DNA of 64,000 nucleotides from contig NZ_AP018724.1 of NCBI RefSeq assembly GCF_004001245.1, forward strand, positions 3,030,501-3,094,500, written 5' to 3'. The DNA comes from Sulfurivermis fontis (lineage in GTDB: Bacteria > Pseudomonadota > Gammaproteobacteria > Thiohalomonadales > Thiohalomonadaceae). Each line of letters begins with the position of its first letter. The stretch's first letter is position 1. The notes beneath the pieces are model-generated. The model did not search any database, was not told the origin of the DNA, and worked only from the letters and a program-made list of their open reading frames with translations. The translations under genes and the position numbers were made by a program. Below are positions 10,293 to 36,339 of the stretch, piece by piece.

Positions 10293-10325
10293 GGAAGCGC
10301 TGAACTTGTTCAGCGCGTCCCTAAG
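10293..10325. repeat. hairpin repeat unit between convergent genes
   Basis: A perfect 8-bp stem GCGCTGAA / TTCAGCGC with loop CTTG. It is followed by GTCCCTAAG, the inverted form of the CTTAGGGA edge seen at 33517 and 34201. Same family as the hairpin at 33538-33565. It lies between convergent genes, may terminate both, and its edge supplies the stop codon of the GNAT gene. Confidence 0.6.
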
Positions 10326-33475: not shown

Positions 33476-33504
33476 TTGACCGAGATTTAGACTTGGTCTA
33501 GGTT
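33476..33504 (+). promoter_or_regulatory. predicted rubrerythrin promoter with palindromic operator
   Basis: A -35-like TTGACC and a weak -10-like TAGGTT are 17 bp apart. Inside lies the perfect palindrome TAGAC-TTG-GTCTA (33488-33500). The position suggests a repressor site, perhaps for a redox or Fe-S regulator; the regulator is unknown. Confidence 0.4.
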
Positions 33505-33515
33505 TATCCTGTATC

Positions 33516-33686
33516 ACTTAGGGAAGCTCTGAATTAAGGAAGCTCTGAATAAGTTCAGAGCTTCCGCGGCACAGGGATGTGCCGCCATTTTTCAACGACG
33601 ATAAGTCGTTGAAAATTGAAGCCAATTGAAAATCACACTTTTCGCTTGGCGTGGCCTGAGAAGCCCAGGATGGACTTATTCAGACC
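33516..33686 (-). repeat. hairpin-array repeat element, left copy (inverted to the right copy)
   Basis: Successive hairpins: a perfect 12-bp stem GGAAGCTCTGAA with loop TAAG (33538-33565), GCGGCACA/TGTGCCGC (33566-33585), TTTTCAACGAC/GTCGTTGAAAA (33589-33615), and a further imperfect pair up to 33686. Bases 33578-33686 are the reverse complement of 34210-34318 with six mismatches in 109 by eye. It lies in the predicted leader of the rubrerythrin mRNA. Confidence 0.8.
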
Positions 33687-33727
33687 CTCCCCAACATGGT
33701 CCCCCACACAAGAAGGAGGTTTGTTTC

Positions 33728-34150
33728 ATGGCAACCCTGAAAGGCAGCAAGACCGAACAGTGCCTGAAAGAGGCATTCGCCGGCGAATCCCAGGCCAACC
33801 GCCGTTACCTCTACTTCGCCGCCAAGGCCGACGTGGAGGGCTACAACGACGTGGCCGCCGTGTTCCGCTCCACTGCGGAAGGCGAAACCGGCCATGCCCA
33901 CGGTCATCTGGAATACCTGGAACAGTGCGGCGACCCCGCCACCGGCCTGCCTTTCGGCAGCACCGAGGCCAACCTGAAGACCTCCATCGCCGGCGAGACC
34001 CACGAGTACACCGACATGTATCCGGGCATGGCCAAGACCGCCCGCGCCGAAGGCTTCGACGAAATCGCCGACTGGTTCGAGACCCTGGCCAAGGCGGAGC
34101 GCTCTCACGCCAACCGCTTCCAGAAGGCCCTGGACTCCCTCGGTCAGTAA
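33728..34150 (+). CDS. rubrerythrin (diiron domain only)
   Basis: 140 residues starting [20 protein letters not shown] after a strong AAGGAGGT site. Ferritin-like four-helix bundle with diiron ligands in [46 protein letters not shown] and [10 protein letters not shown]. There is no C-terminal rubredoxin domain. It would act as a peroxide-scavenging peroxidase needing an external electron donor. The downstream Fe-S oxidoreductase and DUF3501 genes are its usual neighbours. The ORF sits between two inverted hairpin-array repeats. Confidence 0.93.
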
Positions 34151-34164
34151 GTACTCGCTGTACC

Positions 34165-34192
34165 GGCCGGCCACCAAGGCCGGCCTTTTTTT
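34165..34192 (+). terminator. Rho-independent terminator after rubrerythrin
   Basis: Perfect 8-bp stem GGCCGGCC / GGCCGGCC with loop ACCAA and a run of seven T. Confidence 0.88.
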
Positions 34193-34198
34193 GCCGGA

Positions 34199-34318
34199 CA
34201 CTTAGGGAAGGTCTGAATAAGTCCATCCTGGACTTCTCAGACCACGCCAAGCGAAAAATGTGATTTTCGCTTGGCTTCAATTTTCAACGACTTATCGTCG
34301 TTGAAAATTGGCGGCACA
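34199..34318 (+). repeat. hairpin-array repeat element, right copy
   Basis: Begins CACTTAGGGAAGGTCTGAAT. Hairpins: GGTCTGA...TCAGACC with inner AGTCC/GGACT, CCAAGCGAAAA/TTTTCGCTTGG, and TTTTCAACGAC/GTCGTTGAAAA. 109 bp (34210-34318) are inverted relative to 33578-33686 at about 94% identity. The outer edge CACTTAGGGAAG is, in contrast, in the same direction in both copies. Confidence 0.8.
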
Positions 34319-34380: not shown

Positions 34381-35727
34381 ATGTCAGCACCGACCGAGTC
34401 CCGCCGCGAAGGCAATCTGGAAGCCCCCACCCGCCACCCGCTGGACTGGCGCAAACCGGGGTTCTACGACGAGGGCGCGCTGTTCCAGGAGCTGGAACGT
34501 ATCTTCGATATCTGTCACGGTTGCCGCCGCTGCATCAGCCTGTGCAACGCCTTCCCCACCCTGTTCGACCTGGTGGACGAGTCGGACACCATGGAAGTGG
34601 ACGGCGTGAAGAAGGAGGACTACTGGCAGGTGGTGGATCACTGCTACCTGTGCGACCTGTGCTACATGACCAAGTGCCCCTACGTGCCGCCGCACGAGTG
34701 GAACCTCGATTTCCCGCACACCATGCTGCGGGCCAAGGCGGTGAAGTTCAAAAAGGGCGAGTTCAAGACGCGTGACAAAATCCTCACCGCCACCGACGCC
34801 GTCGGCGCCCTCGCCGGTGCGCCGGGCCTGGCACCCGTGGTCAACGCGGTGAACAAGATCGGCCTGTTCCGCCAGGGCCTGCAATTCGTGCTCGGCGTGC
34901 ATCCCGGGGCCCTGCTGCCGCAGTATCACAGCCACACCGCGCGCAAGCGTCTCGCCGGCCATCGCAGCACGGTGAGCCAGCCCGAGGCCGCCGGCCGCAC
35001 CACCGGCCGCGTCGCCCTGTTCGCCACCTGCTACGGCAACCGCAACGAGCCGCACATCGCCGAAGACCTGTTCAAGGTGTTCGAGCACAACAACATCGAA
35101 ATGACCCTGGTGGAAAAGGAGCAGTGCTGCGGCATGCCCAAGTTGGAGCTGGGCGATCTGGAGGCGGTGGAGCGGGCCAAGGACGCCAACATCCCGGTGC
35201 TGCTCGCCGCCATCGACGCCGGCTACGACATCGTCGCGCCGGTGCCGTCCTGCGCGCTGATGTTCAAGCAGGAACTGCCGCTGATGTTCCCCGAGGATGC
35301 CGGCGTGCAGAAGGTGAAGCAGCATATGTTCGACCCGTTCGAATATCTCGCCCTGCGCCACAAGGAAGGCAGGCTCGACACTACCTTCAAGCAGTCGCTC
35401 GGCAAGGTGAGCTATCACGTCCCCTGCCACCTGCGCGTGCAGAACATCGGCCTGAAGACGCGCGATATCCTGAGCCTGGTGCCGGACACCACCCTGGACG
35501 TCATCGAGCGCTGCTCGGGCCACGACGGCACCTACGCGGTGAAGAGCGAGTACCACGACATCGCCATGAAGATCTGCCGCCCGGTGGTGAACAAGGTGAA
35601 ACAGGCCGAGTGCGATCACTACGCCAGCGACTGCCCCATGGCCGGCCATCATATCGAGAACGGCCTGCAGGATGGGCGCAAGCCGGAGCATCCGATGACG
35701 CTGCTGCGCATCGCCTACGGACTGTAG
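34381..35727 (+). CDS. Fe-S oxidoreductase (heterodisulfide reductase/GlpC-like)
   Basis: 448 residues. Two N-terminal 4Fe-4S cluster motifs, CHGCRRCISLCNAFP and CYLCDLCYMTKCPYVPP, precede two CCG-type domains (EKEQCCGMPKLELGD and ERCSGHDG, with HVPCHLR between). This is the architecture of HdrD/GlpC-like electron-transfer proteins. Placed between rubrerythrin and DUF3501, it may feed electrons to rubrerythrin; that is inference from conserved neighbourhood. The start MSAPTESRREGN was chosen for the GGGAGGCAGC site; an upstream ATG at 34330 lies too close to the repeat. Confidence 0.9.
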   Translation: MSAPTESRREGNLEAPTRHPLDWRKPGFYDEGALFQELERIFDICHGCRRCISLCNAFPTLFDLVDESDTMEVDGVKKEDYWQVVDHCYLCDLCYMTKCPYVPPHEWNLDFPHTMLRAKAVKFKKGEFKTRDKILTATDAVGALAGAPGLAPVVNAVNKIGLFRQGLQFVLGVHPGALLPQYHSHTARKRLAGHRSTVSQPEAAGRTTGRVALFATCYGNRNEPHIAEDLFKVFEHNNIEMTLVEKEQCCGMPKLELGDLEAVERAKDANIPVLLAAIDAGYDIVAPVPSCALMFKQELPLMFPEDAGVQKVKQHMFDPFEYLALRHKEGRLDTTFKQSLGKVSYHVPCHLRVQNIGLKTRDILSLVPDTTLDVIERCSGHDGTYAVKSEYHDIAMKICRPVVNKVKQAECDHYASDCPMAGHHIENGLQDGRKPEHPMTLLRIAYGL

Positions 35728-35748: not shown

Positions 35749-36339
35749 ATGAGTTCGACCAAGCTGAAGCGCGAAGACCTGTATTCCCTGGAAAAGTACG
35801 CCGAGATCCGCCCCGAATTCCGCCAGCGCGTGATGGCGCACAAGAAGAACCGCCGCGTCCAGGTCGGACCCAACGCCACCTTCCACTTCGAGGATCGCCT
35901 CACCATGCACTATCAGGTGCAGGAGATGCTGCGCGCCGAGCGCATCTACGAGGCCGCCGGCATTCAGGAGGAACTGGATGCCTACAACCCGCTGATCCCC
36001 GACGGCAGCAACTGGAAGGCCACCTTCATGATGGAGTACGAAGATGCGGATGAACGGGCGCGCGAGCTGGCCCGACTCATCGGCATCGAGGACAAGGTGT
36101 GGATGCAGGTGGGCGACCATGACAAGGTCTACGCCATCGCCGACGAGGACCTGGAGCGCGAGAACGCCGAGAAGACCTCGTCGGTGCATTTCCTGCGCTT
36201 CGAACTTACCCCCGCCATGGCGGCCGATGCCAAAGGGGGCGCCGCCATCGCCCTCGGCATCGACCATCCCAACTACAACCACGCCACCGCGCCACTGCCC
36301 GACAACGTACGCGCCTCGCTGGTGGAAGACCTCGCCTGA
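35749..36339 (+). CDS. DUF3501 family protein
   Basis: 196 residues. It opens KLKREDLYSLEKYAEIRPEF and contains FEDRLTMHYQVQEMLRAERI and DGSNWKATFMMEYEDADERA, the DUF3501 signature. No signal peptide or membrane helix. It follows the Fe-S oxidoreductase by 21 bp and forms the conserved trio with rubrerythrin. Function unknown; a role in peroxide defence or diiron-protein upkeep is suggested only by neighbours. Confidence 0.9.
   Translation: MSSTKLKREDLYSLEKYAEIRPEFRQRVMAHKKNRRVQVGPNATFHFEDRLTMHYQVQEMLRAERIYEAAGIQEELDAYNPLIPDGSNWKATFMMEYEDADERARELARLIGIEDKVWMQVGDHDKVYAIADEDLERENAEKTSSVHFLRFELTPAMAADAKGGAAIALGIDHPNYNHATAPLPDNVRASLVEDLA

Follow-up and report, generated by a model that had tools for sequence, protein, structure and literature searches.

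REPINs are palindromic sequence families that occur in many copies; they are smaller than the hairpin array described here, and they depend on a different transposase. Correia elements and other regulatory MITEs also reach high copy numbers, and promoters, an IHF site, and RNase III cleavage have been reported for them (PMC10969869). The high-affinity site of CsrA/RsmE is described as an ANGGAX hexaloop placed directly on a stem, with N and X variable (PMC4005645). The SELEX consensus is given as RUACARGGAUGU and the repeat of CsrB as CAGGA(U/A/C)G, and very stable stems are said to possibly disfavor CsrA binding (PMC7652899). CsrA has been proposed for testing on the IS200 tnpA transcript, which has three GGA motifs (PMC12594629), and it was considered for TAACTGA repeats and judged unlikely (PMC4679880). 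The main text of the MITE review contains no occurrence of CsrA (PMC10969869). Among the matches listed for CsrA and MITE in the open-licence literature, there was a single co-mention, in unrelated sections of the Rfam 12.0 paper, which we regard as a weak negative.

In the 64,000-nucleotide stretch of Sulfurivermis fontis that we analyzed (the window), a rubrerythrin gene (positions 33728-34150, plus strand; Pfam PF02915, E 1.9e-29) is enclosed by two inverted arms. The initial annotation described a 109-bp inverted segment with several consecutive hairpins; the arms that we measured are somewhat longer, at 117 nt each (33578-33694 and 34202-34318), with 93% complementarity and 507 nt between them. 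Folding confirmed the hairpins, with -73.2 kcal/mol (z -8.8) for the left copy and -95.3 kcal/mol (z -15.1) for another copy that equals the consensus sequence. The arms belong to a high-copy repeat, and their similarity accordingly goes well beyond chance. The two repeats arose by independent insertion of an IS5-type MITE, and we consider it likely that this MITE is a transposable array of hairpins that bind CsrA.

The initial annotation had proposed MITE-like units, and it suggested a genome-wide search for the unit, a check for target duplications, and a covariation analysis. A diagnostic 32-mer had 126 matches at ≤3 mismatches in the 3,246,214-bp single-contig genome, compared with 0 for a backwards control pattern. 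Based on copies aligned with their flanks, the unit is a 153-bp element, GGAAGCTCTGAATAAG...CTTATTCAGACCTTCC (subfamily A), and a second subfamily (B) is 205 bp long with an additional segment. The stretches that we fetched cover part of the 126 matches and include 79 distinct matched stretches: 68 are full length (52 A and 16 B), and the other 11 are truncated, cut at the end of the fetched stretch, or pieces of broken copies. Identical 4-bp flanks occur at 59 of the 68 full copies (49 of these flanks are YTAR), whereas 1000 shuffles gave a mean of 12.0 and a maximum of 22; these flanks are thus target duplications left by transposition. The 49 A copies of exactly 153 nt depart from the consensus at ~1.1% of sites, a low divergence that suggests recent amplification.

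The genome also has five near-identical full copies of an IS5-type element that encodes an IS5 transposase (NF033581, E 1e-105). The ends of this element agree with those of the MITE at 15 of 17 and 15 of 19 positions, making them related but not identical, and by eye its flanks are identical YTAR sequences in four of the five copies, whereas the fifth has unequal flanks, TTAG and CTAG. Given these related ends and shared flanks, we class the unit as an IS5-type MITE with YTAR as its target and a 4-bp duplication, and its movement can probably be attributed to the resident IS5-type element. The earlier proposal of MITE-like units thus held, on the strength of the terminal repeats, the 4-bp duplications, the 126 matches, and the IS5-type relative.

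Based on crude ORF calls, 31 of 68 targets hold the stop codon of a frame open for ≥120 codons, compared with 35 of 122 control YTAR sites (p 0.026). We rejected a preference for insertion at stop codons, since the excess is partly explained by YTAR itself, which contains a stop codon on both strands. A frame open for ≥200 codons covers 46 of 68 empty sites; among control YTAR sites the figure is 41 of 72, and among positions chosen at random it is 1203 of 1360.

Several further observations concern the insertion sites and related repeats. At two loci (L010 and L012), IS5-type copies have inserted right at the YTAR that borders a MITE already in place, and MITEs abut other MITE-like ends, with nesting at duplicated targets. 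At another locus (L011), an IS5-type copy has a CRISPR-like repeat (GTTCATCCCCGCGTGCGCGGGGAAC) on its right, just beyond about position 2188 of the fetched stretch, and the ORF on its left, upstream of 1023, translates into CRISPR-like repeats of the same kind. Solo 28-bp palindromes, GGAAGCTCTGAATAAGTTCAGAGCTTCC, correspond to hairpin 1 of the element alone and have YTAR-like flanks. Allowing ≤2 mismatches to the pattern with its flanks, the genome has 10 (L179, L180, L181, L185, L187, L189, and others, at about 704-731 in each), and several are flanked by TTAA on both sides. These palindromes may be mobile units of extremely small size, or they may have arisen by deletion; at the two of the 10 loci that we compared, the divergence of the congener sequences upstream precluded proof of exact insertion. 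A diverged palindrome of the solo type (28 bp) lies at 10293-10320 of the window, near the end of an ORF. A separate dispersed repeat of ~70 bp occurs in many copies in congeners, mostly in G002, and was found through side matches of the L181 flank.

The left MITE copy (33538-33690, plus strand) is full length, sense to rubrerythrin, and inside the predicted leader; it begins 40 bp upstream of the segment first reported, and it matches R1, our covariance model of the array, at 150.4 bits (E 8e-48). Its immediate flanks are TTAA and CCAA, so its target duplication is not intact, and it is among the nine full copies without identical flanks. It is preceded by a 16-bp tandem duplication of target and terminal repeat (TTARGGAAGCTCTGAA twice; 33518-33549, plus strand), and by eye, similar doublets of target and terminal repeat occur at two further copies (L061 and L027). 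The predicted fold on the plus strand comprises five hairpins: hairpin 1, formed by the left terminal repeat (33538-33565); hairpin 2 (33566-33585), with the loop C-AGGGAU-G, a hexaloop of the published CsrA/Rsm type (PMC4005645, PMC7652899); hairpin 3 (33586-33618); hairpin 4 (33621-33650), which is partly decayed; and hairpin 5 (33653-33686), with a partly decayed stem and the loop CCAGGAUGG, which contains the CsrB repeat CAGGAUG (PMC7652899). Several stem pairs of this copy are broken, and both of its GGA loops are intact.

The right copy is inverted (34206 to about 34318, minus strand; R1 116.1 bits) and lacks ~40 bp at its left end. It meets host DNA at a common GCACA, which suggests truncation by a microhomology deletion. 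R1 stretches this copy to 34355; the congener alignment shows that the extra part is host DNA. From our reading of the sequence, a TTAG target (34202-34205) lies beside it. The initial annotation had also pointed to an edge shared by both copies in the same direction, which ordinary duplication and inversion would not explain. This edge, CACTTAGGGAAG, is present at 33515-33526 and 34199-34210, but it needs no special explanation: it consists of the YTAR target TTAG followed by GGAAG of the terminal repeat, and since the element opens with GGAAG at either end, inversion of a copy leaves the direction of the edge unchanged. The CAC in front of it belongs to host DNA that differs between the two sites, namely an operator on the left and GGACAC on the right.

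Upstream of rubrerythrin, we identified by eye a predicted promoter, TTGACC-17-TAGGTT (33476-33504, plus strand), with a leader starting near 33512; the motif TTGACN-17-TANGTT is common to the three aligned congeners (G001, G002, and G004). Each of these congeners has a pair of TTAGACTNAGTCTAA-type palindromes separated by 28-31 bp. The window retains the first of them as TTAGACTTGGTCTAG, a 7-1-7 inverted repeat (33487-33501) that is Fur/PerR-like in form and that we take to be an operator. Of the second, only the left part, CACTTAG (33515-33521), is found; it lies directly before the element, with TTAG as the apparent target, and the right half is missing. Sites of the TTAGACTNAGTCTAA type occur ≤250 bp upstream of rubrerythrin at 37 of 80 diverse loci, with two or more sites at 6 of them, compared with an expectation of 1.05 from shuffling and 0 in a coding control. 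The S. fontis genome has two matches to the Fur family, neither adjoining rubrerythrin. PerR sites with different sequences have been predicted at rubrerythrin genes of other proteobacteria (PMC545781).

Downstream of rubrerythrin lie an Fe-S gene (34381-35727, plus strand; Pfam CCG, with NCBIfam GlpC models matching below their cut-offs) and then a DUF3501 gene (35749-36339), and within the stretches fetched for G001, G002, and G004, the gene order is the same. In all three congeners, rubrerythrin and its neighbors are conserved with no element on either side, and these empty sites show that the two copies were inserted independently and not as a cargo unit. In the rubrerythrin stretch of a fourth congener (G003), no element was seen, and the intergenic flanks are too diverged to align. 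The initial annotation had suggested a mobilized cargo unit, and inverted copies that flank a gene do resemble a composite transposon carrying rubrerythrin between two MITEs. However, the gene, its position, and its neighbors are common to congeners without the MITE, the right copy is truncated, and a close inverted pair is expected by chance. Among about 77 mapped distinct copies, three neighbor pairs lie <1 kb apart, and only the pair in the window is inverted; two pieces of a single broken copy (L197) were left out of this count. The expected number of pairs is 1.8 for 77 copies and 4.8 for 126 copies; for 77 copies, the probability of three or more pairs is 0.26, and that of at least one inverted pair <1 kb apart by chance is 0.59. 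We rejected the inverted pair as a special arrangement, since these counts match chance; the pair is compatible with coincidence, and a composite transposon, refuted by the conserved synteny, is scarcely credible.

The empty sites bear in the same way on the idea of a structured RNA, for instance a riboswitch or attenuator, that belongs to the rubrerythrin leader in particular. In its favor, the left copy has a strong predicted fold and is preceded by a promoter motif that congeners also have, but the element is absent from the orthologous leaders of all three aligned congeners, it is present at >100 other sites, and with 6 differences from the consensus, the left copy is among the most diverged of the 49 A copies. 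On the basis of the empty congener sites we rejected a rubrerythrin riboswitch, and this reading as a whole, largely refuted, is a very remote prospect. The structured RNA that the initial annotation proposed for rubrerythrin found no support as a feature conserved in the leader: aligned congeners have no such RNA, the copy in the leader has lost several pairs, and stems in S. fontis diverge as much as unpaired sites. The array is, however, conserved in structure as a family, and with its CsrA-type loops an RNA role is plausible, in a form that the annotation had not put forward.

Among 20 relatives searched, only G001 (four matches) and G004 (three matches) had matches besides the genome of origin, and across the class, 51 of 369 genomes matched by BLAST at E ≤1e-3, weak and partial matches included. 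For other genera, we retrieved 40 stretches representing 35 genomes. A 29-row alignment combines the S. fontis element, two congener copies, and 26 others that are close to full length; 34 of its 57 pairs in the five-hairpin structure have changed on both sides. The covariation analysis suggested initially gave 0.327 across genera, compared with 0.142 +/- 0.006 after shuffling (0 of 500 shuffles reached the observed value), and when partner columns were slid by 1-3 positions, pairing dropped from 91.6% to ≤52.3%. In a 12-row alignment of S. fontis and congener copies, 4 of 61 pairs are two-sided, a value reached by 149 of 500 shuffles; three other measures beat all shuffles, and the number of further pair types was reached by 30 of 500.

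With the covariance model R1 at E ≤1e-5, 48 of 398 genomes of the phylum matched. Three of these are in the same class (S. fontis, G484, and G377) and 45 are outside it, 36 of the 45 from one family (f207). Elements outside the class have the same five hairpins, and among those with complete flanks, 6 of 13 have identical 4-bp flanks, 4 of the 6 being YTAR. In other genera, 24 of 58 elements have identical 4-bp flanks, compared with a mean of 5.3 and a maximum of 11 after shuffling. The array also occurs with different terminal repeats, of the CAGGNNGTNGAAAAA type at L251 and L261 (by eye) and AGAGGGTGTCGCAAAA at L257 (by script); judged from these sequences, the terminal repeat seems to vary more than the array does. 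No match was found in a plasmid collection for the two elements tried or in a phage collection for the one tried. Rfam gave no gathering-level match in the window, and at four loci it gave sub-threshold matches only, one of them a fragment of the RsmV sRNA model (E 0.49); the array is thus not filed as a member of a CsrB/RsmZ-like family. At one locus in another genome (L240, G031), inner hairpins are repeated in tandem with a 124-bp period, and seven CsrA-type motifs (three CANGGANG and four CAGGATG) lie within about 0.5 kb.

Within S. fontis, stems depart from the consensus at 0.0115 and unpaired positions at 0.0112 per site across the 49 A copies, and this equal divergence means that individual copies show no selection on pairing. 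Selection, if any, would act on the lineages that propagate and not on each copy. In quasipalindrome correction, template switching during replication can produce covariation in stems without selection. The element could accordingly be read as an ordinary IS5-derived MITE without an RNA role, its hairpins perfected by template switching and its GGA loops inherited: stems and unpaired sites differ equally within its own genome, there is no significant orientation bias, and palindrome correction would also give two-sided changes. What such a MITE leaves unexplained is that ANGGAX in loop 2 and GGA in loop 5 persist while N, X, and the stems vary, that subfamily B has two additional hexaloops, and that the array persists with other terminal repeats. 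We therefore regard an ordinary MITE as unlikely, though as the most serious of the alternatives to a MITE that carries CsrA-type hairpins.

The loops were examined in 65 folded elements, one per source: 46 BLAST-found stretches (the S. fontis element, 5 from congeners, and 40 others, after 50 opposite-strand, partial, or secondary rows were dropped) and 19 found with R1 (16 from family f207, after one secondary row was dropped). An apical GGA is present in 59 of 62 predicted hairpins 2 (42/43 BLAST-found and 17/19 R1-found) and in 58 of 63 predicted hairpins 5 (40/44 and 18/19), and it is present in 0/61, 5/63, and 1/64 of hairpins 1, 3, and 4, respectively. Since R1 contains the loops, the 19 outside-class elements are biased towards GGA; the 46 BLAST-found elements were gathered without R1, from a single query. 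Apical TCC, the reverse complement of GGA, was seen in a single hairpin 1 and a single hairpin 5. A stem-closed C-ANGGAN-G hexaloop is present in 50 of the 65 elements, with all four bases found at each of the positions N and X, compared with a mean of 0.15 (maximum 2) in shuffled elements and 0/65 on the opposite strand.

All rows of the 29-row alignment have the GGA of hairpin 5. Hairpin 2 of the S. fontis element is ACAGGGAUGU, with a loop that matches the high-affinity CsrA/RsmE site described in the literature; in hairpin 5 of S. fontis, the A that precedes N in ANGGA is missing. A motif search gives one hexaloop in 47 of 52 A copies and three hexaloops in 14 of 16 B copies. Folding predicts a pair of GGA apical loops in 51 of 52 A copies, and B copies folded whole have two (12 copies) or three (4 copies), with one on the opposite strand as well in 15 of 16. 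Across both strands of the whole 64-kb window, the hexaloop with ≥6 closing pairs occurs three times, one of them in the left copy. The stems of the array are long, which is relevant to possible disfavored CsrA binding.

Perfect palindromes can extrude as cruciforms, and the array could act as DNA, through a cruciform, a DNA-binding protein, or a gyrase site. The IHF site of a Correia MITE (PMC10969869) offers a precedent. The hexaloop, however, is strand-specific and matches an RNA-binding consensus, which makes a role as DNA quite improbable.

If the hairpins of the MITE do bind CsrA, the protein should be available in its hosts. S. fontis has one csrA match, and 313 of the 369 genomes of the class have csrA. 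Lists compared by eye place csrA in 49 of the 51 genomes with a BLAST match to the element and in 264 of the 318 others (p 0.012), although these are raw counts that phylogeny and genome size may confound, csrA being common in the class. The two element-bearing genomes without a csrA match (G105 and G135) are both assemblies of >400 contigs. Based on crude gene calls, 23 copies are sense to both flanking genes and 13 are antisense to both (p 0.13), a difference that does not amount to a clear strand bias; of the other copies, 17 lie between convergent genes and 14 between divergent genes, and one was not classed.

Read on the plus strand, the element is a five-hairpin array in which, across genera, two hairpins keep GGA loops of the CsrA/RsmA type while the stems change by compensation. 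We propose that transcribed copies would bind CsrA in cis within a host mRNA or in trans as decoys like CsrB or RsmZ, and the element would then be a mobile carrier of CsrA sites. At rubrerythrin, the left copy entered the second operator and destroyed it, and with the start site that we predict, the leader grew to about 215 nt from an earlier length of roughly 60-65 nt. The insertion put two CsrA-type hairpins upstream of a Shine-Dalgarno region that itself contains GGA (AAGGAGG, 33712-33719, plus strand; third GGA at 33715). In the predicted leader fold, the Shine-Dalgarno region is paired, and the loop GGA motifs of the left copy, at 33575 and 33668, are unpaired. Given the destroyed operator and the hairpins gained, rubrerythrin has probably lost one regulator site, and it may have come under CsrA control. 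The right copy, which is antisense, is probably a bystander.

A broader reading is that transposable elements with several types of terminal repeat, in at least two classes of one phylum, carry a CsrA-binding hairpin array as conserved cargo; in S. fontis, they would supply a few hundred potential CsrA sites, rewiring mRNAs into the CsrA regulon or titrating CsrA throughout the genome. We put the chances of this at about even. If the hairpins bind CsrA, one family of mobile sequences has spread the sites of a global post-transcriptional regulator over whole genomes. This would provide a direct route for the evolution of a regulon and possibly a selfish manipulation of a master RNA regulator, and it would account for the near-perfect hairpins and conserved loops that a MITE has maintained across large distances. 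Relative to congeners, the rubrerythrin locus has lost one operator and gained two CsrA-type hairpins, which makes it a convenient case for testing.

Compared with known systems, the element shares with the IS5 family and its derived MITEs the related terminal repeats, the 4-bp YTAR duplication, and a resident IS5-type transposase; however, the resident IS5-type element has no stem-closed GGA hexaloop, and the five-hairpin array is also found elsewhere with other terminal repeats. Like the Coxiella elements QMITE1 and QMITE2, which are reported as a source of sRNAs, it is a MITE with a possible RNA product; we draw this likeness from their description, in which the role of the sRNAs is given as unknown (PMC10969869). 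With CsrB/CsrC and RsmX/Y/Z, it has in common hairpins with GGA in the apical loop, the ANGGAX hexaloop, and the CAGGA(U/A/C)G repeat (PMC4005645, PMC7652899). In contrast to those sRNAs, the array is dispersed in >100 transposed copies; its GGA hairpins number two in subfamily A and, counted by motif, as many as four in subfamily B, and three of its hairpins lack GGA.
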